A stretch of 64,000 bases of DNA. It comes from Streptomyces albus subsp. albus (lineage in GTDB: Bacteria > Actinomycetota > Actinomycetes > Streptomycetales > Streptomycetaceae). The notes under the pieces were generated by a model. It worked only from the letters and a program-made list of their open reading frames with translations, was not told the DNA's origin and searched no databases. This document shows positions 8,373 through 58,967 of this stretch, one piece after another (position 1 is the first letter of the stretch; every line of letters begins with the position of its first letter). A program made the translations under genes and the position numbers. Location: assembly GCF_000719865.1 (NCBI RefSeq), contig NZ_JOID01000023.1:33985-97984 (forward strand), read 5' to 3'.

Positions 8373-9701
8373 TCACACGGGGGTGCGCACCGCCAGGACG
8401 GCCATGTCGTCGTGCCCGTCGCCGGGGTGCTCGTCGGCCAGGGTCCGGCAGAGCTCGTCCAGCGGCGCGGCGGCGTGGGCGGCGGCGAGCCGGGCGAGGG
8501 CGTCGAGGCCCTGGTCGATGGGGTGGTCGCGGTGCTCGACCAGTCCGTCGGTGAAGAGGATCACCGTGGCGCCGGGCGGGAGTGGGTACGCGTGGTCGGG
8601 ACGCGGCAGCAGGGCGTCCACCCCGAGCGGCAGGCCCGGCTCGCCGGGCAGGAGGTGGGGCGTCCCGTCCCCGTCCAGGACCAGCGGCGGGGGGTGGCCC
8701 GCCGTGGACCAGTGCAGCGTCCAGGGCCCCGTCCCGCCGGGTGCCGGTTCGATCCGGGCCAGGCAGGCGGTGGTCACGGGGTTCTCCGTGATGGCGTGCA
8801 GGGTGTGGTCGAGCTGGGTGAGGACCCGGCTCGGCGGGGTCCAGCGGTCGTACAGCAGGGCGCGGAGCATGTTGCGGGTCTGCGCCATGGCGGCCGCGGC
8901 GATGAGGTCGTGGCCGACGACGTCACCGATGACCATGGCGCAGGAGCCGTCCGGCAGCAGCAGCGCGTCGTACCAGTCGCCGCCGACCTGCCCCGGGTCC
9001 AGGGCCTGCTCGGTGGAGGTCCGGTAGACCGCGGCGCCCGTGAACGGGGTCAGATCGGGGAGCCGGGGGAGGAGCAGGCGCTGGAACCGCTCGGCGGTGC
9101 CGCGGGTCCGCTCGAAGAGGCGGGCGTTCTCGATGGCGACACCGGCCGCTCCGGCCAGGGCGACGACCACCGCCTCGTCGTGGTCGTCGAAGGACCGGCC
9201 GTCGCGCCGGTCGCAGAGGTAGAGGTTGCCGTAGATCTGGCCCCGGACGCTGATGGCCACCCCGAGCAGGGTGCGCATCGGCGGATGCCCGGCGGGGAAG
9301 CCGACGGACTCCGGATGGCCCGGGATGTCCTCCACCCGCAGCGGCTCGGGGTGGTGGATGAGATGCCCCAGCAACCCGCGGCCGTGCGGGAGTTCGACCC
9401 CTTCCAGGGCGCGGTACTCCGCCTCGTCCAGGCCGAGCGTGATGAACTCCGACAGGCCCTCGGCCTTCTCGTCCAGCACGCCCAGAGCGCCGTAGCGCGC
9501 GCCGACGAGCTCCATGGCGGTGGTGACGATCCGCCGCAGGACGACGGGGAGGTCCAGCTCGCGGCTGACGTCGAGGACCGCGTCCAGGAGACCCCGGAGG
9601 CGGTTCTGCGCCTCGGCGAGCTGCCGGAGCTGCTCGGTGATCCGGTGGATGTCCTCCGGCTGCTGGGGGAGCCCGGGGGCGGGCTGGTTCACGTGGTCCA
9701 T
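8373..9701 (-). CDS. GAF-domain PP2C (SpoIIE-type) phosphatase
   Basis: 442-residue cytoplasmic protein. A short helical N-terminus is followed by a GAF domain (about residues 30-200) and a PPM/SpoIIE phosphatase domain (about 210-440). The metal-binding acidic motifs are intact: GGDWYD, GDVVGHD, AGHPPP, LFTDGLVE and the final DDMAVLAV. Proteins of this design dephosphorylate anti-sigma-factor antagonists and so tune stress sigma factors. GAF domains in dormancy systems can bind haem or nucleotides, but no ligand residue can be assigned here. The ATG at 9701 is the only good start at the edge of the domain. No anti-sigma factor or antagonist is encoded nearby, so its partner is elsewhere. Confidence 0.93.
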   Translation of the reverse strand: MDHVNQPAPGLPQQPEDIHRITEQLRQLAEAQNRLRGLLDAVLDVSRELDLPVVLRRIVTTAMELVGARYGALGVLDEKAEGLSEFITLGLDEAEYRALEGVELPHGRGLLGHLIHHPEPLRVEDIPGHPESVGFPAGHPPMRTLLGVAISVRGQIYGNLYLCDRRDGRSFDDHDEAVVVALAGAAGVAIENARLFERTRGTAERFQRLLLPRLPDLTPFTGAAVYRTSTEQALDPGQVGGDWYDALLLPDGSCAMVIGDVVGHDLIAAAAMAQTRNMLRALLYDRWTPPSRVLTQLDHTLHAITENPVTTACLARIEPAPGGTGPWTLHWSTAGHPPPLVLDGDGTPHLLPGEPGLPLGVDALLPRPDHAYPLPPGATVILFTDGLVEHRDHPIDQGLDALARLAAAHAAAPLDELCRTLADEHPGDGHDDMAVLAVRTPV

Positions 9702-11115: not shown

Positions 11116-11541
11116 TCAGGCCGTCCGGCCCTCGGCGGGTGCCGCCGCGGCGCGCGGGCCGTCCCCCTCCGCTCCGCCGCGCCACGGCGGCGGAGCGGCC
11201 GAACGGCGCGCGGTCTGCCGGCTGTCGAGGGCCCGCTCCACCTGGCGGCGCAGCCGGTCCTGCAGGCGGTCGGTGGCCTCCTGGCTGGTGGCCTCCCGGG
11301 CGTGGGCGACCACGAGGTCCGGGCCGATCCGCAGTTCGGCCGCCGCGGTCCAGGGGTGCTCGGCGTGGTGGGCGTTCGCCCTGGCGATCCGCACCCCGCC
11401 GGTCACGGGAGGCAGCCCCTGCCGGTCCAGCACCGCGCCGATCTTCGCCCGGAGGTACTCCAGCACCCCCTCGTCGACCTTGCCCTCGGCCCGCACCCGC
11501 ACGGCCTCGGTGCCGCGGACTCCGGTTTCCCTGGCTGTCAT
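11116..11541 (-). CDS. HPF/S30AE-type ribosome hibernation factor
   Basis: 141-residue protein whose first about 100 residues fit the S30AE (HPF/RaiA) fold: an N-terminal strand and helix (VRVRAEGKVDEGVLEYLRAKI), then AAELRIGPDLVVAHAREA and the closing helix DRLQDRLRRQVERAL. Members bind the 30S subunit and silence or dimerise ribosomes in stationary phase or hypoxia. The tail after residue about 110 is Ala/Pro/Gly-rich, and no long-HPF C-terminal dimerisation domain is present, so this is a short form. The ATG at 11541 has GAGGGAG 8 bases upstream. A candidate stress-regulator box (11607-11620) lies 66 bp upstream. Similarity is by pattern, so the family call is good but not certain. Confidence 0.75.
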   Translation of the reverse strand: MTARETGVRGTEAVRVRAEGKVDEGVLEYLRAKIGAVLDRQGLPPVTGGVRIARANAHHAEHPWTAAAELRIGPDLVVAHAREATSQEATDRLQDRLRRQVERALDSRQTARRSAAPPPWRGGAEGDGPRAAAAPAEGRTA

Positions 11542-11606
11542 TCGGACCACTCCCTCGTCGCTCTTCCTGACGACTTCAGTCTTCAGCCGGGGCCGCACCG
11601 GACCCA

Positions 11607-11620
11607 GGGCCCATCGGCCC
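11607..11620. promoter_or_regulatory. Candidate DosR/OsdR-type operator upstream of hpf
   Basis: GGGCCCATCGGCCC is an imperfect palindrome of the form GGGCC-N-AT-N-GGCCC, 66 bp upstream of the hpf start. Near-identical sites are at 13199 and 13689, also upstream of stress genes. Assignment to a DosR-like regulator is inference from the gene set. Confidence 0.55.
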
Positions 11621-11621
11621 C

Positions 11622-12040
11622 GCCCGGAGGGCCGTGAGACCTGCCGCTGATCACGTTCGTCCCGGTCCCGCGGGGCCGTACGGGCCGCCTTCCGGCCGGC
11701 ACGGGAACGGGGACCGGAGCGGGTGTGGACGCGCTCGGCCGACGACCCGCCGGCTGTGCTCCGGCACGGGCGGGCGGCCGTGCCGGGCCGGAACCGCCGG
11801 AACGTGCCAGGCCGGACCGTGCCCGTGCCCTTGCCGGACTGTGCCGCGCCCTTCCGGTCCGAGCCGTGCCGGGCCGGTTCCTGCCTGGCTGTGCTGAGCC
11901 CGGGCCGTGCTGGCCGTTCCGGCTGGACTTGCCGGGCCGTGCTGTGCCGGACCGCGTCGGGCTGTGCCGTGCCGGCCGGACTGGACGGGCGGTGCTGTGC
12001 CGGACCGCGCCGGGCGGCGGCCGGCCGTGCCGGGCCCGCC
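11622..12040. repeat. Gene-free spacer with GTGCCGGGCC-type repeats
   Basis: Imperfect copies of GTGCCGGGCCGG and of a 20-bp word beginning GTGCTGTGCCGGACCGCG (11939 and 11991) run from about 11760 to 12035. No gene on either strand has a start signal or family motif. Confidence 0.6.
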
Positions 12041-12118
12041 GGGGCGGCACCGATGGGGTGGTGCCGCCCCCGGAACTGTCCGGTGCCGCCCCGGAACGTC
12101 CGGTGCCGCCCCGCAACC
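12041..12118 (-). terminator. Stem-loop and 3 x 20-bp repeat after usp
   Basis: Perfect 11-bp stem GGGGCGGCACC / GGTGCCGCCCC (12041-12051 and 12060-12070, 8-base loop), just downstream of the minus-strand usp, is a likely terminator. The distal arm begins the first of three head-to-tail copies of GGTGCCGCCCCGGAAC-type 20-mers reaching 12118. Confidence 0.6.
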
Positions 12119-12119
12119 G

Positions 12120-12986
12120 TCACTCCTCGCGGACGACCGCCACGGGGCAGCCGGCGTGCTGGGTGGCGGCCTGGCTGACCGAGCCGAGCAGCAGCCCGGC
12201 GAAGCCGCCGCGGCCCCGCGCGCCGACGACCAGCAGCCGGGCCTCCTCACTCGCCTCCACCAGGGCCTCCCGGGCACGCCCCCGCACCAGCCGGTGCTCG
12301 ACCGGCACGTCGGGGTACCGATCGCGCCAGCCGGCCAGCGACTCGGCCAGCAGCCGCTCCTCGTCGGCCTTGAGCATGCCGGGCTCGTAGGCGTACGGGG
12401 CCGACTTGTCCTCGGGCGGCGGCACCGGCACGCTCCACTCCGACCAGGCGTGCAGGGCGACCACCCCCGTCTCCTGGGCCGCCGCCGCCTCGAAGGCGAA
12501 GCCGATCGCCGCCTCGCCCGCCGGGGAGCCGTCGACGCCGACGAGCACCGGTCCGGTGCCGTCCGTCCGGCCGCGGACCACCAGCACCGGGCAGTGGCCG
12601 TGCGCCGCCAGCTGCCCCGCTACCGAGCCGATCAGCAGCCGGGCGAAACCGCCCAGGCCCCGGCTGCCGACCACCACCAGGGCGGCCTCGCGGGACCGCT
12701 CCTCCAGGACGGTGAGCGCCTCGCCGGTGACGACCTCGCCCGAGATCTCCGCGTCCGGGGCGGTCGCCCGGGCCCGTTCCTCGGCCTCGGCCACGATCCG
12801 GTTCGCCTCGTACCGCAGGTCGCCCTCGACCGCCCCCAGCGGCATGTGCGTCGAGGGCCAGACGAAGGCGTGCACCACCCGCAGCGGGCGGTTGCGGTAC
12901 CCCGCCTCGCGGGCCGCGACCTCGACAGCCTCCAGACCGGACGGTGATCCGTCCACGCCCACCACCACAGGACCGTTCCTCGCCAT
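12120..12986 (-). CDS. Universal stress protein, tandem UspA domains
   Basis: 288-residue protein with two UspA domains. Unlike the three plus-strand usp genes, both nucleotide loops are intact: GSRGLGGFAR with LLIGSVA in the first domain and GARGRGGFAG with LLLGSVS in the second, so it may bind two ATP. The domains begin VVVGVDGS and VLVGVDGS. ATG 12986 is preceded by GGAGAGG at 9 bases; GTG 12989 is an equally usable start one codon earlier. It is divergent from the P-type ATPase at 13760 across a 770-bp spacer with candidate operator boxes. Confidence 0.93.
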   Translation of the reverse strand: MARNGPVVVGVDGSPSGLEAVEVAAREAGYRNRPLRVVHAFVWPSTHMPLGAVEGDLRYEANRIVAEAEERARATAPDAEISGEVVTGEALTVLEERSREAALVVVGSRGLGGFARLLIGSVAGQLAAHGHCPVLVVRGRTDGTGPVLVGVDGSPAGEAAIGFAFEAAAAQETGVVALHAWSEWSVPVPPPEDKSAPYAYEPGMLKADEERLLAESLAGWRDRYPDVPVEHRLVRGRAREALVEASEEARLLVVGARGRGGFAGLLLGSVSQAATQHAGCPVAVVREE

Positions 12987-13198
12987 CACCGGTCACCTCT
13001 CCACTCGCATCGTCCCCGGGCCGGTTACGGAAACCGGGGGACCTCCGCCGGGCCGGACGGCCGTGCCGCTCCGGCGGGCCGGAGGCGGCGCGACGCGGGC
13101 CGGACGCCGTGCCCTCGTCACCGGGCAGGTGTCCCGGTCTCCTCCCAGCACACCACCGCCGGTGCCCGGACAGCAGGGCCCGGCGGGCCACTTGGCGG

Positions 13199-13212
13199 GG
13201 CCCACCGGCCCT
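13199..13212. promoter_or_regulatory. Candidate stress operator, usp side
   Basis: GGGCCCACCGGCCC, identical to the site at 13689-13702 and one base different from the site at 11607. It is 213 bp upstream of the minus-strand usp start. A related sequence GGGCCCGGCGGGCC lies about 20 bp away, as expected if dimers bind side by side. Confidence 0.5.
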
Positions 13213-13688
13213 GACGTGTGGCGGACGGACCCGCGGTCCCGCGGTCCCGCGGTCCCGCGCCGACGGGGCCGCCGGCCCGGCTCCGCGCCGGGAACGCACG
13301 GCAGCGGGGAGCCGGGCCGACGGCCCCCGGACGGCCGTTGCGGACGCACGGCCGGGCGGCGCCGGACGTACAGCCGGGCACCGTACGGCAGTTGTCTCGT
13401 AACGACACATCACATGGCGAGGCGTCCGGTACCGGGGCATCACGTGACACGACGTCCGCCGCCGCCCCACACCGCCGCCGCTCCGGCCCCCGCGGACCGG
13501 CCGCTCGGTGGTCCGCGGGGGGATCGAGGCGGGTCCGTACGGACCCGTGAGCCGGAGCCCGCCCGGCCCCGCGCCTGCCCGCGCCTGCCCGCGCCGTGCG
13601 GGGCCACTCTCCACGATGCGGCCCCGCCTCCCCGGCGGCAACCGCGCGGGTGAACCGGGCAGCGGGCCCGACGGCCGGTGCCGCGCAA

Positions 13689-13702
13689 GGGCCCACCGGC
13701 CC
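13689..13702. promoter_or_regulatory. Candidate stress operator, ATPase side
   Basis: GGGCCCACCGGCCC, 57 bp upstream of the P-type ATPase start, a distance typical of an activator site. Identical over 14 bases to the copy 490 bp away in the same divergent spacer. Confidence 0.55.
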
Positions 13703-13715
13703 CGCCCGTACCCCG

Positions 13716-13736
13716 CGGGCCCTGTTGCAGGGCCCG
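13716..13736. promoter_or_regulatory. Perfect 9-bp inverted repeat before ATPase gene
   Basis: Arms CGGGCCCTG and CAGGGCCCG flank TTG, ending 23 bp before the ATPase ATG. It could be a second operator for the same regulator or a 5'-leader hairpin. Confidence 0.5.
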
Positions 13737-13759
13737 GGCGTTGCGGGAAGGCTGCGAGC

Positions 13760-16498
13760 ATGGTGAGGGATGAGGAGGCTCCGGTGGCGGCACCGCCCGC
13801 GGCCGGTCTGTCCGCGGGGGAGGCCGCCGCGCGGCTGGAGCGGTACGGTCCGAACATCGTCAGCGCGGCCCGCCCCACGCCGCTGTGGCACCGGATCGCC
13901 GCGCAGTTGCGCGATCCGCTGATCCTGGTCCTGCTGGTGGCCATCGCGCTGACCGTCGCGACCGGCGACTACCTCGACACTGCGATCATCTCCTTCGTCG
14001 TCGTGGTCAACTCGGCCGTGGGCGTGGTCCAGGAGGTCCGCGCGGAGCGGGCCGTCATGGCGCTGCGCGCGCTGAGCGCGCCCGGCGCCCGGGTGGTGCG
14101 GGGCGGCGAGGAGCGCCATGTGCCGTCCTCGGAGGTGGTGCCGGGGGATCTGGTGCTGCTCGGCGAGGGCGACATCGTGCCCGCCGACGGGGAGCTGCTG
14201 GAGGAGGCCGCGCTGCTCGTCGACGAGTCCTCGCTGACGGGCGAGGCGGAGCCGGTGGGCAAGCCGCTGCCCGCGGACGGGGAGCCGCGGCCCGTCGTGT
14301 CGGCGGGCACCGTCGTCGTCCGGGGCCGGGCCCGCTTCGTCGTCACCGCGACCGGCGCGGACAGCGCCACCGGCCGGATCGCGGCGCTGATGACGACGAG
14401 GCCCTCGGCGACGCCGCTGCAGCGACGGCTCGCCGCGTTCGGCCGGGTCCTGGCCGCCGTCGCCGTGGCGCTCTGCCTCGTGGTGCTGGTCATCGGGCTG
14501 CTGCGGGGGCAGGACGCGGAGCTGATGGCGGTCACGGCGATCAGCCTGGTGGTCGCCGCCGTGCCCGAGTCGCTGCCGGCCGTGGTCACGCTCGGGCTGG
14601 CGCTGGGCGCCCGGCGCATGGCGGAGCGCAACGCGATCGTGCGGCGGCTGCCGGCCGTGGAGACCCTGGGCTCGGTCACCGTCATCGCCACCGACAAGAC
14701 CGGCACCCTGACCGAGGGCCGGATGTCGGCCCAGCGGCTGTGGACCCGGCACGGCACGGCCGCGGTCTCGGGCACCGGCTACGCCCCCGAGGGGCGGGTG
14801 GAGCGCGCGGACACCGAACTGCGGCCGGACACGGCACCGGACGTCACGGAGCTGCTCACCGCCGCCGTGCTCTGCAACGACGCCGCGCTCCAGGCCCCCG
14901 ACGAGCAGGACGGCCGGGGCGCGGAGGGCCGGGGCGACGAGGCCCGTTCGAGCGCCCAGGGGGACGAGGCCGACTGGCACGCCCTGGGCGACCCGACGGA
15001 GGCCGCCCTGCTCACCGCCGGGGCCCGGCTGGGCCTCGACCGGGAGGCGCTGGCCCGGCAGTGGCCCCGGACGGAGGAGATCCCGTTCACCAGCGACCGG
15101 GCGCGGATGACCACCGTCCACCGCCGCCCCGGCGGCGGGCTGCGCGTCATCTGCAAGGGCGCGCCCGAGGTGGTGCTCGTCCCTGAGGTGCTGGCCGACG
15201 GCGCCGGGGCGCTCGCCGAGGCCGCGGAGGCCGCCGGGGAGCTGGCCGCGGAGGGCTACCGGGTGCTGGCCGTCGCCGTAGCGGACCGTGCGGAACCGCC
15301 GGAGGACGGCGAGGACTGGGAGTCCGGGCTGAATCTGCTGGGGCTCATCGGCATCCTCGACCCGCCGCGGGAGGCGGCGGCCGTGACCGTGGCGGCCTGC
15401 CGCCGGGCCGGGATCATCCCGGTCCTCATCACCGGCGACCACCCGCTGACGGCCGGGGTGGTGGCGCGGCGCCTCGGCATCGTGGAGGCCGGGGAGGAGG
15501 CGGAGGAGGTGACCACCGGAGACCGCATCCGCGACGGCTCCGCCGGCGACCTCACCAAGCCGCGGGTCTTCGCCCGCACCAGCCCCGAGCAGAAGCTCGA
15601 CATCGTGCAGGCCTGGCGCGGTGCCGGGCACGTCGTCGCCATGACGGGCGACGGCGTCAACGACGGGCCGGCGCTGCACCGCGCCGACATCGGTGTCGCC
15701 ATGGGCCGCCGCGGTACCGAGGTGGCCCGGCAGGCCGCGGACCTGGTGCTGGCCGACGACGATCTCGGTACCGTGGTCGCCGCCGTCGAGGAGGGCCGCC
15801 GCGTCTACGCCAACGTGCGGCGGTTCCTGCTGTACGGGCTGGCCGGCGGCACGGCGGAGATCCTGGTGATGCTGACCGGCCCGCTCCTCGGCATGCCGCT
15901 GCCGCTGCTGCCCGCCCAGATCCTCTGGATCAACCTGCTGACCCACGGCCTTCCGGGCGTGGCCCTCGGCGCCGAGCCGGTGGCCCCCGACACCATGCGG
16001 CAGCCGCCGAGGCCGCCGGAGGAGAGCGTGCTCGGCGCGGGACTGTGGCCGCGCATCCTCGCCATGGGCCTGGTGATCACCGCGGCCTCGCTGGGAGCCG
16101 GCGTCTGGGCCCACGAGACCGGACGGCCGTGGCAGACCATGATCTTCCTGGTGCTGGGCGCCACCCAGCTCGGGGTGGGCCTGGCCTCGCGGGCGCGGCC
16201 GGGCACCTTCACCAACCCGTTCCTGCTCGTCGGGATCGCCGTCGCGCTGGCGCTGCAGATCGCGGGCGTCTATCTGCCGCCGCTGCAGAAGCTGCTCGGC
16301 ACGGAGGCGCTGAGCGCGGGTGACCTGGCCATCGGCTGCGCCCTCTCGGCGGTCGGCTACGCCGCGATGCGCCTGCAGACGCGGCTGTCGGCCGGCGGGG
16401 AGCGGGCGGCCGGCCCGGGGGCCCCGAACGCCCCTTCGGCTTCCGGAACTCCGGGGACGTCCGGGGCCACGGAGAGCCGGGCACGGGCGGGCCGCTGA
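13760..16498 (+). CDS. P2-type cation-transporting ATPase
   Basis: Integral membrane ATPase of 912 residues. It has an N-terminal cation-ATPase domain, actuator loop (SLTGEAEPVGK), fourth membrane helix with VPESLPAVVT, phosphorylation site DKTGTLT (Asp about 311), nucleotide-binding domain, the hinge TGDGVNDGPAL, and C-terminal membrane helices. The PESLP variant of PEGLP marks the P2 (Ca2+/Na+-type) group rather than heavy-metal CPx pumps, but the ion cannot be read from sequence. The nucleotide-binding domain carries an acidic insertion near residues 390-415. ATG 13760 follows GGGAAGG. Candidate DosR-type boxes lie just upstream, matching CtpF of the mycobacterial dormancy regulon. The last 35 residues are a Gly/Ala/Ser tail. 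Confidence 0.93.
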   Translation: MVRDEEAPVAAPPAAGLSAGEAAARLERYGPNIVSAARPTPLWHRIAAQLRDPLILVLLVAIALTVATGDYLDTAIISFVVVVNSAVGVVQEVRAERAVMALRALSAPGARVVRGGEERHVPSSEVVPGDLVLLGEGDIVPADGELLEEAALLVDESSLTGEAEPVGKPLPADGEPRPVVSAGTVVVRGRARFVVTATGADSATGRIAALMTTRPSATPLQRRLAAFGRVLAAVAVALCLVVLVIGLLRGQDAELMAVTAISLVVAAVPESLPAVVTLGLALGARRMAERNAIVRRLPAVETLGSVTVIATDKTGTLTEGRMSAQRLWTRHGTAAVSGTGYAPEGRVERADTELRPDTAPDVTELLTAAVLCNDAALQAPDEQDGRGAEGRGDEARSSAQGDEADWHALGDPTEAALLTAGARLGLDREALARQWPRTEEIPFTSDRARMTTVHRRPGGGLRVICKGAPEVVLVPEVLADGAGALAEAAEAAGELAAEGYRVLAVAVADRAEPPEDGEDWESGLNLLGLIGILDPPREAAAVTVAACRRAGIIPVLITGDHPLTAGVVARRLGIVEAGEEAEEVTTGDRIRDGSAGDLTKPRVFARTSPEQKLDIVQAWRGAGHVVAMTGDGVNDGPALHRADIGVAMGRRGTEVARQAADLVLADDDLGTVVAAVEEGRRVYANVRRFLLYGLAGGTAEILVMLTGPLLGMPLPLLPAQILWINLLTHGLPGVALGAEPVAPDTMRQPPRPPEESVLGAGLWPRILAMGLVITAASLGAGVWAHETGRPWQTMIFLVLGATQLGVGLASRARPGTFTNPFLLVGIAVALALQIAGVYLPPLQKLLGTEALSAGDLAIGCALSAVGYAAMRLQTRLSAGGERAAGPGAPNAPSASGTPGTSGATESRARAGR

Positions 16499-31531: not shown

Positions 31532-32830
31532 ATGCGTCCTCGGAATGTGTGGCAGGCCATGTCCCGGCCGGGCTTCCTGCTGTCGGCGTGGCCCTGGCGT
31601 TCCGTCGCCTATCTGCTCACCGGAGCGGCGGCCGGTGCCACCGCCCTGGTGGGGGTCGTGACGGTGGCGGCGTTCGCCGGGGCGCTCGCCATCACGGTGG
31701 TGGGACTTCCCCTGCTCGTGGTGGTCGCGCTGACCGGAATTCCGGTGGCCTGGGTGGAGCGGCGCAGGCTGAGCCTGATCGACTGTGATCCGGCACCCGG
31801 ACGGCACCGGGGGCCGGTCGCGCCGGGCCTGTGGGCCTGGCTGACCACCCGGCTGCGCGAACAGGCGACGTGGCGGGAGCTCGGGTTCGTGCTGCTGTTC
31901 GCCGGGCTGCTGTGGCCGGTTGACGCCTTGGTGCTCACGGCGGCCCTTCTCTTCCCCCTGGCTATGGTCGCCACCCCGCTGCTGATGGCCACGGTCGGCG
32001 ACGGCCAGGAGACCAAGGTGCTCAAATTGTGGACGATCACCACGTGGCCCACCGCGTACGGCGTCGCCCTGCTGGGCCTGGTCCTCATGGGCCTGTGCGC
32101 TTACGCGCTCGGCGTCGCGGCGGGTGCCCGTGCCGGGCTGACCCGGCTGCTGATCACCTCCCACGAGGGCGAACTCGACGCAAGGGTGACCGAGTTGACC
32201 CGGTCCCGCTCCCGGTTGGTGCACGCCTTCGAAGCGGAGCGGCGCCGCATCGAACGCGATCTGCACGACGGCGCGCAACAGCGGCTGGTGGCCCTGACGA
32301 TGGCCCTGGGCCTGGCACGGCTGGACGCACCGCCCGGTCAGTTCGCCGACCACCTCGCCAAGGCCCATGAGGAGGCGGACAAGGCTCTCGCGGAGTTGCG
32401 CGAGCTCATCCACGGCATCCATCCCAGGGTCCTCGCGGACTACGGTCTGGAAGCCGCGGTCGCCGACGCCGCGGACCGCTCCGCGATCCCCGTCGACATC
32501 GACCTCGAACTGCCGGGCCGACTGCCCTCAGCGGTCGAATCCGCGGCGTACTTCGCGGTCTGCGAAGCGCTCGCCAACGTCGCCAAGCACAGCGGCGCCG
32601 GCCGTGCGCAGGTGAGCGGATGTCACCGAGACGGCCGCCTGTTCCTCCAGGTGCGCGACGACGGCACAGGCGGCGCCGATGCCTCGCTGGGCAGCGGGCT
32701 CACCGGCCTCGCGGACCGGGTGTCCGTCCTGGATGGCAGACTTGCCCTGGCCAGCCCGCCGGGGGGACCGACGCTGTTACTTGTGGAGTTTCCTTGCGAG
32801 TTGACCGAGGGAGACCATCGCTCCGCGTAG
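31532..32830 (+). CDS. Sensor histidine kinase (NarL-type two-component system)
   Basis: 432-residue membrane kinase. An N-terminal sensor with four helices (about residues 25-60, 110-150 and 165-195, no large extracellular loop) is followed by a HisKA_3 helix with the phospho-acceptor motif ERDLHDGAQQR and an ATPase domain (N-box CEALANVAKHSG, G-box GSGLTGLADRV). The small sensor suggests detection inside the membrane, as in LiaS/VraS-like antibiotic-stress kinases. ATG 31532 lacks a ribosome-binding site, but a TACGGT box ends 7 bases upstream, so a leaderless transcript is possible. The end overlaps the response regulator. It is divergent from the MacB/FtsX exporter, its likely target. Confidence 0.93.
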   Translation: MRPRNVWQAMSRPGFLLSAWPWRSVAYLLTGAAAGATALVGVVTVAAFAGALAITVVGLPLLVVVALTGIPVAWVERRRLSLIDCDPAPGRHRGPVAPGLWAWLTTRLREQATWRELGFVLLFAGLLWPVDALVLTAALLFPLAMVATPLLMATVGDGQETKVLKLWTITTWPTAYGVALLGLVLMGLCAYALGVAAGARAGLTRLLITSHEGELDARVTELTRSRSRLVHAFEAERRRIERDLHDGAQQRLVALTMALGLARLDAPPGQFADHLAKAHEEADKALAELRELIHGIHPRVLADYGLEAAVADAADRSAIPVDIDLELPGRLPSAVESAAYFAVCEALANVAKHSGAGRAQVSGCHRDGRLFLQVRDDGTGGADASLGSGLTGLADRVSVLDGRLALASPPGGPTLLLVEFPCELTEGDHRSA

Positions 32831-33462
32831 TGCTGGCCGAGGACAGCGTGCTGCTGCGGGAAGGACTCATCGGTCTGCTCGGCCGCTCCGGCAACGAGGT
32901 GGTGGCCGCCGTGGCCGACGCGGAGTCGCTGGTCGCCGCAGTTGAGGAGCACGCCCCCGACATCGTGGTGACGGACGTGCGGATGCCGCCCGGTTTTCAG
33001 GACGAAGGGCTGCACGCGGCGGTGCGGCTGCGCGAGAAGCGGCCGGCTCTGCCGGTTCTGGTCCTCAGCCAGTACGTGCAGCGGACCTACGCCGCTGAGC
33101 TGCTGGACTCCGGCGACGGTTCCGGGGTCGGTTACCTGCTGAAGGACCGTGTCGGCCAGGTCGAGGAGTTCGTCGACGCCCTGCACGAGGTGGCGGACGG
33201 CGGGACCGTGGTCGACCCGGAGGTGGTGCGCCGCCTGCTGCGCCGTCGCCGCGATCCGCTGGAGCGGCTCACGCCGCGCGAGCGCGAGGTGCTGGCGCTG
33301 ATCGCGGAAGGCAGGTCCAACAGCGCGATCGCGAAGGAGCTGGTGGTCTCGGAGGCCGCGATCGGCAAGCACATCAACGGCATCCTCACCAAGCTGGACC
33401 TGCCTCCGGCGGACGGGACCCACCGCAGGGTGCTGGCCGTTCTGGCCTACCTGCGGGCCTGA
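32794..33462 (+). CDS. NarL/LuxR-family response regulator
   Basis: 222-residue regulator with a receiver domain (acidic AED, phospho-acceptor Asp in VVTDVRMP, switch Ser in LSQYV, Lys in LLKDRV) and a C-terminal LuxR helix-turn-helix (LTPREREVLALIAEGRSN, then EAAIGKHINGILTKLDL). The TTG at 32794 has GTGGAG 6 bases upstream and overlaps the kinase by 37 bases; GTG 32830 is an alternative but would remove the first strand of the receiver fold. The pair most likely controls the divergent exporter and itself through the dyads in the shared spacer. Confidence 0.92.
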   Translation: MRVDRGRPSLRVVLAEDSVLLREGLIGLLGRSGNEVVAAVADAESLVAAVEEHAPDIVVTDVRMPPGFQDEGLHAAVRLREKRPALPVLVLSQYVQRTYAAELLDSGDGSGVGYLLKDRVGQVEEFVDALHEVADGGTVVDPEVVRRLLRRRRDPLERLTPREREVLALIAEGRSNSAIAKELVVSEAAIGKHINGILTKLDLPPADGTHRRVLAVLAYLRA

Positions 33463-43588: not shown

Positions 43589-44251
43589 TCAGCCCGGGGC
43601 CACGAAGCCGGACTCGTACGCCGCGATGACCGCCTGCGTGCGGTCCCGCACCCCGAGTTTCGCCAGGATCGAACTCACATGGGATTTGACGGTCTCGCCG
43701 CCCACGACCAGGCGTGCGGCGATCTCCGCGTTGGACAGCCCACGCGCCATGAGACGCAGCACCTCCCCCTCCCGCCCGGTCAGCGCGGCGCGCTCCATGG
43801 CCGCCCGGGCCCCGGCGTTGCCGTGCTCTTCGCCGTGCGCGGCGGCCAACTGCCGCACCGCCGCCGGGAACAGCAGGGAATCGCCTTCCACCACCAGCCG
43901 CATGGCCTGCACGATCTCCGCCGGCCGCGCCCGCTTGAGCAGGAACCCGTCAGCGCCGGCACGGAGCGCCCCGTACACGTACTCGTCGTTCTCGAAGGTC
44001 GTCACCACCACGATCTTGGGCGGGTCCGGCACCGTGCGCAGGACCGCCCGCGTGGCCTCGATGCCGTCCATGAGGGGCATGCGTACGTCCATGGCCACCA
44101 CGTCGGGGCGCAGCCGCCGGATCAGCGGGATCACGGCCGCCCCGTCACCCGCCTCGCCCACCACCTCGATGTCCGGCTGGGCCTCCAGTACGGCGCGCAG
44201 GCCCGCCCGTACGAGTGGTTCGTCGTCGACCAGGAGAACGGTGAGCGGCAT
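43589..44251 (-). CDS. NarL/LuxR-family response regulator
   Basis: 220-residue regulator. Receiver domain with DDEP, phospho-acceptor Asp in VVAMDVRMPLMDG, Thr in VVTTFEND and Lys in LLKRARP; C-terminal LuxR-type HTH (ALTGREGEVLRLMARGLSN, then GGETVKSHVSSILAKLGV). The most likely partner is the DesK-like kinase at 45343-46563, also on the minus strand, but a plus-strand reductase gene lies between them, which is unusual. The likely target is the ABC exporter at 46671-48358. Confidence 0.92.
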   Translation of the reverse strand: MPLTVLLVDDEPLVRAGLRAVLEAQPDIEVVGEAGDGAAVIPLIRRLRPDVVAMDVRMPLMDGIEATRAVLRTVPDPPKIVVVTTFENDEYVYGALRAGADGFLLKRARPAEIVQAMRLVVEGDSLLFPAAVRQLAAAHGEEHGNAGARAAMERAALTGREGEVLRLMARGLSNAEIAARLVVGGETVKSHVSSILAKLGVRDRTQAVIAAYESGFVAPG

Positions 44252-56657: not shown

Positions 56658-58208
56658 TCAGTCCTTGGAGAACATGCCGAGCATGCGGCGGGTGACCGCG
56701 AAGCCACCGAAGATGTTGATGCTCGCCAGCAGGACCGCGGCGAACGACAGTACGGTCACGACGGTGTTCCCGTGCCCGATCTGGAGCAGGGCGCCGACGA
56801 CGATGATCCCGGAGATCGCGTTGGTCACCGACATCAGCGGCGTGTGCAGCGCGTGGTGCACGCTGCCGATGACGTAGTAGCCGATCACGATGGCCAGCAC
56901 GAACACCGTGAAGTTACCGGCGAGCTGGCTCGGCGAGACCGCCGTCAGCAGGAACAGGCCCAGCGCGACCAGACCACCGAGCGCCAGCTTGCGGCTCTGC
57001 GGCATCGGCTGCTTGCGCTTGCTCTCCGCCGTGGGCGTCGCACCCTCCGCCGGCTTCGGCTGCGCGGCCGGGGCGGCGGACACCTGCACCGGCGGTGGCG
57101 GCCACGTCTTCTCTCCCGCGCGGACCACCGTCATCGACCGCTGCACCACGTCGTCGAAGTCCAGGACGACCTGACCGTCCTTGCCCGGCGTCAGCAGCTT
57201 CATCAGGTTGACGATGTTGGTTCCGTAGAGCTGCGAGGCCTGCGCGGGCAGCCGGCCCGGCAGATCCGTGTAGCCGATGATCGTCACGCCGTTGTCCGTC
57301 ACGACCACCTCGCCCGCGACGGAGCCCGCGACATTGCCGCCCTGCGCGGCGGCCATGTCGACGATCACGCTGCCCGGCCGCATGCTCGCCACGTGCTCGG
57401 CCGTCAGCAGCCGGGGCGCCGGGCGGCCGGGGATGAGCGCCGTGGTGATGACGATGTCGACCTCGGCGGCCTGCTCCGCGTAGATCTCCGCGGCGCGCCG
57501 GTCGTAGTCCTCGGACGTCGCCTTGGCGTAGCCGTCGGCGCTCGCCTCCTGCTCGACCTCCACGGCGAGGAAATCCCCGCCCAGCGAGCGCACCTGGTCC
57601 GCGACCTCCGGACGCGGGTCCGTCGCCCGGACGACCGCGCCGAGGCCCTTGGCGGCGCCGATCGCCGCCAGCCCGGCCACGCCCGCACCGGCCACCAGCA
57701 CCTTGGCCGGCGGCACCTTGCCCGCCGCCGTCACCTGGCCGGTGAAGAACCGGCCGAACCGGTGGGCCGCCTCGATAACCGCGCGGTAGCCGGCGATGTT
57801 GGCCATCGAGCTCAGCACGTCCAGCGACTGGGCCCGGGAGATGCGCGGCACCGCGTCCATCGCCAGGACGGTGATCGAACGCTGCGTGAGCGTCTCGACG
57901 AGCTCCGGGCGCAGAGCGGGGCCGATCAGGCCGATCAGCGTCGCGTCGTCCCGCAGCAGGCCGACCTCCTCCGGAGCCGGTGGATCGACCTTCAGGACGA
58001 CATCGGACCGCCAGGCATCCTCACGGCTGCCTATCTTCGCGCCGGCCTGCGCGTACAACTCGTCCGCGAAATCCGACCGCTGACCGGCACCCGACTCGAC
58101 CAGGACGTCGTAGCCGAGGCTGATCAGCCGGCGCACGGTGTCCGGGGTCGCGGCGACCCGCGTCTCCCCTGTGGCCGACTCCGCGACCACACCGAGCCGT
58201 TGGACCAT
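56658..58208 (-). CDS. pntA: NAD(P) transhydrogenase subunit alpha
   Basis: 516-residue subunit with the NAD(H)-binding domain I (about residues 1-380; [37 protein letters not shown] with the GxGxxG loop, and [12 protein letters not shown]) fused through a Pro/Lys-rich linker (residues about 385-420) to four membrane helices of domain II. The single-chain form is that of E. coli PntA (510 residues); some actinobacteria split this subunit in two. ATG 58208 has AAAGAGG 8 bases upstream and starts a pntAB operon. The reaction links NADPH supply to the proton motive force. Confidence 0.95.
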
Positions 58209-58967
58209 CGATCCGACCTCTTTCTGTGACGTTCCTCCGGGTCCTCCCCGGTGCGGTTGCACTCGAGTGGCCGGAGGGATGTGTGATGAGATCCGCGTTG
58301 TCCGTCGTGATGGCCGGATGTCGTCCTTGACAAAGGCCCTGGCAGCTTCGCGCCGAGCAGGCCCTCACTTGGCGGATCCGGACAGCGGAACCTACTGACG
58401 GGTCACGAGCGAGGGCAGGCTAGCCCGGTGATCTCGCACGGGGCAAGGGAGCGCCGGGGGCCGGAACAGGCGCACACCAGGGTGTTCCGATCTCTGTGAG
58501 CGGCCACAGAGCGGGTCGTGCGGGGAAGGGCCAACCGGCCCATGTGGCAGGACTCACGGCCGGACCGACCGCAGAATGAGACACCGGGAAGGACGGACCG
58601 CCCCGAACCGGACGGCCCGCTTCCGGGACCGTTTCCCTGCCGAAGCGCCGGGTATCCGGACAAGCCCGGCGGGCTTCCGGTTCGGCCGATCGGTTGACTG
58701 ACCGTCTGTCTGTTCGCTGCCCGTCCGGCGGGTTCCGCAGGATGTGCCGGACGCCGGACGCCGGACGCCGGACGCCGGACGCCGGACGCCGGACGCCGGA
58801 CGGCCGGGAGCGCACGGGAGTGCCGGGCGCACCGCCCGGTCATCCGGCCGTTCGGACCGCTCGGGCCGCTGGAGCGGCTGGGCTGCCCGACTGCCGGACT
58901 GCCGGACTGCCGGACCGCCCGGATCCCGCCCGCCGACCGTACGCCCGCCGACCGAGCCGGAGCCGCC
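58209..58967. repeat. 759-bp divergent spacer with tandem repeats
   Basis: 58746-58801 holds eight perfect copies of the 7-mer GCCGGAC, and 58892-58915 holds three perfect copies of the 8-mer TGCCGGAC, both shortly upstream of the P450 gene. The 450 bases next to pntA are ordinary sequence, expected to carry its promoter. No gene. Confidence 0.8.

Follow-up and report, generated by a model that had tools for sequence, protein, structure and literature searches.

Palindromic boxes upstream of a RafH-like gene in Streptomyces albus as predicted operators of the DosR orthologue OsdR

Three near-identical palindromes lie in promoter spacers of an hpf-like, a usp and a P-type ATPase gene of Streptomyces albus subsp. 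albus, and raise the question of which protein reads them and whether they tie the three genes into one regulon. The original prediction, made from a stretch of 64,000 nucleotides of contig NZ_JOID01000023.1 (hereafter the window), proposed a single regulon under a regulator of the mycobacterial DosR type. From sequence comparison we consider it highly probable that the boxes are operators of OsdR, the DevR/DosR orthologue and a NarL-type response regulator, which would give a likely regulator to a previously anonymous box. The hpf-like gene is a firm prediction as an OsdR target, usp is a likely target, and the P-type ATPase gene is only a possible one. The features on which the argument draws are:

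11116..11541, minus strand: hpf-like gene, 141 aa, with a predicted single-domain ribosome-hibernation-factor fold; nearest solved structure RafH
11606..11621, minus strand: primary hpf box of OsdR type, read on the gene strand as GGGGCCGATGGGCCCT; PWM 16.8 bits; centre -72 from the start codon; kept in relatives
11628..11643, minus strand: degenerate second hpf box, CAGGTCTCACGGCCCT; -2.5 bits; 22 bp upstream of the primary box
11672..11687, minus strand: additional OsdR-like site; PWM 12.1 bits; -138 from hpf
12120..12989, minus strand: usp gene with two Usp domains (Pfam PF00582)
13049..13064, minus strand: further OsdR-like site; PWM 12.2 bits; -67 from usp
13175..13190, strand unassigned: weak partner box, AGGGCCCGGCGGGCCA; 2.2 bits; 22 bp from 13197
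13197..13212, minus strand: OsdR-type box between the divergent usp and P-type ATPase genes; PWM 14.8 bits; -215 from usp
13663..13678, strand unassigned: weak partner box, CGGGCCCGACGGCCGG; 5.0 bits; 25 bp from 13688
13688..13703, plus strand: OsdR-type box; PWM 14.8 bits; -64 from the start codon of the P-type ATPase gene; lacking conservation in the closest orthologues
13760..16498, plus strand: P-type cation ATPase (Pfam and NCBIfam)
58527..58542, minus strand: fourth motif copy; PWM 13.2 bits; -344 from a pntA-like transhydrogenase gene (56658-58190)

The boxes and their fit to the OsdR operator

Exact copies of the motif GGGCCNAYNGGCCC occur at four places in the window: 11607-11620 (on both strands), 13198-13211, 13689-13702 and 58528-58541. 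The three boxes named by the original prediction are all present as exact matches, but the second starts at 13198, its claimed position of 13199-13212 being one base too high; the copy at 58528 was absent from the earlier list. Downstream of the three named sites follow the hpf-like (-72), usp (-215) and P-type ATPase (-64) genes, the distances running to start codons chosen in this analysis. The five strand matches at the four places compare with 0.24 expected, and none of 100 dinucleotide shuffles reached five. For any GGGCC-N4-GGCCC the window holds five against 1.7 expected (one shuffle in 100 reached five), and with two mismatches allowed in GGGCCNAYNGGCCC it is at background, 97 versus 89.7. 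The pattern GGGNCNNNNNGNCCC, a 15-mer for a 14-bp box, was excluded from the results.

In Streptomyces, OsdR is the orthologue of mycobacterial DevR/DosR; its operator is given as AGGGCCGATCGGCCCT by Urem et al. 2016 (PMC5069765), who checked predicted OsdR sites by EMSA on several promoters. We built a PWM from the 25 sites in Table 1 of that paper, which themselves score 11.0 to 18.6 bits on it. The boxes at 11607, 13198 and 13689 reach 16.8, 14.8 and 14.8 bits, and all three fit the published 16-bp palindrome.

Raw counts across the genome tell a different story from the window. In 6.94 Mb no excess of GGGCCNAYNGGCCC was found, with 19 strand matches at 18 places versus 45 strand matches for the reversed pattern, and the 16-mer AGGGCCGWWCGGCCCT with two mismatches is likewise without excess (43 versus 39 places). 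Genome-wide enrichment was the test that the original prediction had proposed for itself, and its failure would, on those terms, count against the claim; in a GC-rich genome, however, such an excess test is too blunt. The matches are locally clustered, with four places in the 64-kb window versus 14 in the rest of the genome (Poisson P about 1e-5, computed post hoc), and a crude gene predictor puts 11 of the 18 places in non-coding sequence, versus a non-coding fraction of 0.22-0.23. It is conservation, rather than raw counts, that decides the status of the boxes.

The window begins within a pyruvate formate-lyase operon (141-2023), which encodes the oxygen-sensitive fermentation enzymes pyruvate formate-lyase and activase. 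The divergent pfl spacer, just outside the window and shared with a GNAT/CoA-ligase-type gene, carries boxes of 19.9 and 17.0 bits at C23:32758 and 32820 (L050:12758, 12820). Separately, an OsmC-like gene is preceded at 57 nt by a 14.5-bit box (L050:7022, C23:27022) that has a partner 23 bp away. Strong boxes of 20.6 and 15.1 bits (L051:10623 and 11911, on C22) stand beside genes for a DUF2202 ferritin-like protein and an OmpR-type response regulator, both possible further members of the regulon. A short tandem repeat with a 7-base unit (GCCGGAC-like), seen by eye, occupies a spacer at about 58749-58802 of the window.

Candidate regulator and kinase

The DosR/OsdR guess proved right in kind, for the box fits the OsdR operator and the genome encodes orthologues of both OsdR/DevR and OsdK/DevS, but the regulon of three genes to which it was attached is uneven. 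The regulator was expected outside the window, and this is borne out: two OsdR/DevR orthologues lie on other contigs, at C2:240382-241116 (L055:12382-13119) and C22:79937-80647 (L052:14937-15647), and for both the best solved relative is DevR (3c3w), with E 4e-75 (C2) and 1e-81 (C22). Each has receiver and GerE domains, the segment EKTVKN and the context VLDVRLPDG. Presumably EKTVKN is where Lys179, Lys182 and Asn183 of DosR fall, consistent with the alignments. According to the review PMC4082495, these three residues are DNA contacts of DosR. Identity between the paralogues is 76%; each sits in an island of its own together with usp- and CBS-type genes, and the two may divide the regulon between them. 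The cognate kinase, which was found with the devS-like neighbour of hpf in a relative (L073) as query, lies at C47:9749-10843 and onwards; it is of the DosT/DevS haem-GAF type, and its GAF-GAF-HisKA_3-HATPase architecture is that of DevS/OsdK.

The alternative that one of two NarL-type proteins encoded in the window serves as the regulator did not hold. Neither is a DevR orthologue, and both match VraR best: the protein at 43589-44251 with E 2e-45 (DevR only fifth, E 5e-34) and that at 32830-33462 with E 7e-19 (DevR third, E 2e-16). The former also departs in the recognition segment, with ETVKSH versus KTVKNH. More generally, another regulator of similar specificity might bind the boxes, for example one OsdR paralogue alone or a different NarL-type protein. 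That the two OsdR/DevR-like proteins have near-identical recognition segments and that the genome holds 43 GerE-domain matches speaks for this explanation, yet devR/osdR itself is preceded by the identical box type in 29 of the best 30 loci, and the NarL-type proteins of the window differ as just described; we regard it as improbable.

As a side observation, a fusion of a DosT/DevS-type haem-GAF domain with a SpoIIE/PP2C phosphatase is also encoded in the window (8373-9701, minus strand); over 177 residues it shares 53% identity with the OsdK of this genome. It keeps the segment HPPMRT, the histidine of which would be the haem ligand, and its product is possibly an oxygen-sensing phosphatase. 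We considered whether the fusion is unusual and rejected this: the best 120 of 5163 matches are GAF + SpoIIE proteins from many actinobacteria, among which the architecture is common.

Conservation and pairing of the boxes

If the boxes are operators of OsdR, they should recur upstream of orthologous genes. A footprint was taken as the best site in a given stretch, with the same stretch reversed as control, a threshold of 12 bits and our own locus counted; for usp, the ATPase and devR/osdR the counts refer to the best 30 loci from 121 genomes. The positive control, devR/osdR, has a box in the said 29 of 30 best loci versus 0/30 reversed (400 nt upstream plus 45 nt).

The hpf-like gene carries a box within 400 nt in 13 of 21 loci (controls 0/21) and within 150 nt in 11 of 21 (controls 0). 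This first sample comprised 30 loci minus nine weak or partial ones (L090-L098), of which seven had no tblastn match, L093 has a 13.2-bit site and L094 has none. Hold-out loci, which omit the already seen L069, L082, L087 and L088, give a box in 9/22 versus 0 controls (150 nt), with positions spread more widely, from -71 to -121. Scores fall below threshold in 8/21 loci of the first sample and 13/22 of the hold-out. Some close relatives are included in the sample, e.g. L074 and L079; a non-redundant set, from which upstream regions at least 75% alike were removed, retains the box in 14/26 loci versus 0 controls. In 12 hpf promoters with a box of at least 10 bits 60-92 nt upstream, six boxes are centred exactly at -72 and the rest at -69 to -89.

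The other genes follow at a distance. A box is found for usp in 7 of the best 30 loci (0 controls), at variable positions, and for the P-type ATPase in 5 of the best 30 (0 controls), anywhere within 500 nt; however, among ATPase orthologues at least 56% identical in the best-30 listing it occurs in 1/18, and in none of the four nearest (69-71% identical). For pntA, 0/14 relatives have a site of at least 9 bits (five at 68-79% identity, the rest at 43-46%); pntA is therefore unsupported as a regulon member, and the 58527 box upstream of it is probably not a functional regulon site. The single regulon of hpf, usp and ATPase thus survives in part: site conservation is strong at hpf and moderate at usp, but poor at the ATPase.

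These figures bear on a more sceptical explanation, namely that only the hpf box, perhaps with one usp box, works as an operator, and that the copies at the ATPase and pntA arose by chance as palindromes in a genome of 74% GC. It overlaps with our main reading at hpf, and we give it slightly less than even chances. The weak conservation at the ATPase, its absence at pntA and the lack of a genome-wide motif excess all agree with it. On the other hand, two boxes with an identical core (GGGCCCACCGGCCC) share one divergent spacer of 770 bp, where they have weak partners at 22 and 25 bp; the local clustering described above (P about 1e-5), albeit post hoc, speaks against it too; and the five ATPase loci with a site within 500 nt, among the best 30, stand against none in the controls.

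The partner boxes provide a second line of evidence. In 12 of 12 hpf promoters, our own locus included, the best upstream neighbour of the primary box lies 21-23 bp away, a comparison confined to upstream offsets of 15-40 bp; our own promoter has a degenerate partner (-2.5 bits), and once both sides are considered its best neighbour is at -16. For the hold-out, with either side allowed, 9/12 neighbours lie at 21-25 bp and 3/12 outside this range. A wider survey of the window and 20 other genomic stretches shows that non-coding sites of at least 12 bits have their best neighbour (within 15-40 bp) 21-25 bp away in 16/23 cases, versus 0/12 for coding sites. With close pairs collapsed the non-coding figure is 15/22 (P 8e-7 under equal offsets), the 21-25 bp range having been chosen after the neighbour offsets were seen; permuted-matrix controls for this pairing give a pooled value of 0.22 and a highest value of 0.8. 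Averages of PWM score by offset were noisy and had no clear peak at 22 bp, and best-neighbour offsets were therefore used instead. The hpf promoters test pairing more fairly than does the survey with its post hoc range.

In M. tuberculosis, DevR sites are closely packed and the proximal one overlaps the -35 element, as described in PMC3029386. OsdR would bind co-operatively, along a single face of the DNA. A scan for consensus sigma-70 promoters in 11500-13800 found none. To pick out genuine sites in GC-rich genomes, where counts of single boxes show no excess, a model of paired boxes spaced 21-25 bp suggests itself as a sharper operator description.

Palindromes of this form might also act as RNA or DNA hairpins, i.e. 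as terminators or attenuators rather than protein operators, and as read from the sequence every box could indeed fold into a stem of 5 GC pairs and a loop of 4 bases. However, the boxes at 13198 and 13689 sit between divergent genes, so that no gene ends there, and a scan of 11500-13800 found no T-tailed terminator, a point of limited force since many Streptomyces terminators have no T tail. Moreover, the hpf box retains its partner at 21-23 bp in relatives, and the variant GGGACCGGACGGCCCT (L078) breaks a stem pair yet fits the operator. Hairpin function is accordingly the least credible of the explanations, and very improbable.

The RafH-like protein and known systems

No Pfam family matches the 141-aa hpf-like protein at 0.001, and its named relatives are mostly annotated 'hypothetical protein', the best match being 90% in S. 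xinghaiensis. Its best relative is RafH, by single sequence (E 1e-5), by PDB profile (E 1.4e-10) and by predicted fold. The single-sequence fold was poor (pLDDT 55), and the alignment-based model was taken; this has pLDDT 77, with structure up to residue 114 only and confidence that is low from residue 126 on. As a prediction, the protein has the HPF fold. Profile and predicted fold place in it the N-terminal HPF domain of RafH, while there is no counterpart of the C-terminal second domain in a protein of only 141 aa; since length and model agree on this, we call the protein RafH-like and not RafH. The usp and P-type ATPase assignments, which come from domain matches, hold at family level.

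In the same genus, neighbours of hpf include DevR-like response regulators (L072, L080, L083), CBS-BON genes (L070, L073) and a PPDK-type PEP-utilising enzyme (L074); the adhE-, pfl- and devS-like neighbours in relatives were recognised solely by reading translations.

Under the OsdR reading, events may be envisaged as follows. A fall in oxygen, or a change in redox state or NO, would lead the haem-GAF kinase OsdK to phosphorylate OsdR. Phosphorylated OsdR would occupy the palindrome and, through co-operative binding, a weaker box that lies near the -35 region at a distance of about two helical turns; once bound, it would switch the gene on. The product of the hpf-like gene, a RafH-like factor, would then park 70S ribosomes. 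It seems fairly probable to us that DosR-type low-oxygen control of ribosome hibernation is common to Streptomyces and Mycobacterium, exerted in the former by a single-domain RafH-like factor under a conserved tandem OsdR operator whose boxes are spaced by about 22 bp. A ribosome-hibernation gene would thereby be added to the predicted Streptomyces OsdR regulon, and Streptomyces would offer a tractable host genus for studying DosR-type ribosome parking under oxygen limitation.

Neither the operator nor the regulator is new, and the same goes for much of the gene set; what is new, as a prediction, is the RafH-like conserved target with its paired promoter boxes. A literature search, thin on subscription journals and without supplements, found no paper joining OsdR with ribosome hibernation. 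In its main text, PMC5069765 uses neither 'ribosom' nor 'hibernation' nor 'ATPase'. No hpf-like gene or P-type ATPase is named in Table 2 of PMC6302529, which covers known-function genes only.

The locus is most readily compared with the OsdR regulon of S. coelicolor and S. lividans, as described in PMC5069765 and PMC6302529. Common to both is the 16-bp palindromic operator, and the likeness extends to the gene classes (usp, CBS, PPOX, nitroreductase, pyruvate formate-lyase and PPDK) and to the OsdR/OsdK-type regulators; in the S. lividans RNA-seq, pfl, PPDK, usp, PPOX, CBS and nitroreductase genes are co-expressed with osdR (PMC6302529). Different from the published regulon, hpf-like and P-type ATPase genes carry boxes here, and the regulator genes lie on contigs other than that of the window. 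The ATPase is assigned by P-type ATPase family domains only. In mycobacteria, ctpF, the gene of a P2A calcium ATPase, belongs to the DosR regulon, and the DevR consensus is less GC-rich than the Streptomyces operator.

The Mycobacterium DosR/DevR regulon resembles the present system in having a DosR-controlled hibernation factor and close packing of DevR boxes (PMC10799931, PMC3029386). That factor, RafH (Rv0079/MSMEG_3935), has two domains (PMC10799931), in contrast to the single domain of the Streptomyces hpf-like protein with its 141 aa. In predicted beta-alpha-beta-beta-beta-alpha fold and in length the latter resembles single-domain HPF/YfiA proteins, and yet, compared with the YfiA/HPF chains in the PDB, it is nearer to the N-terminal domain of RafH.
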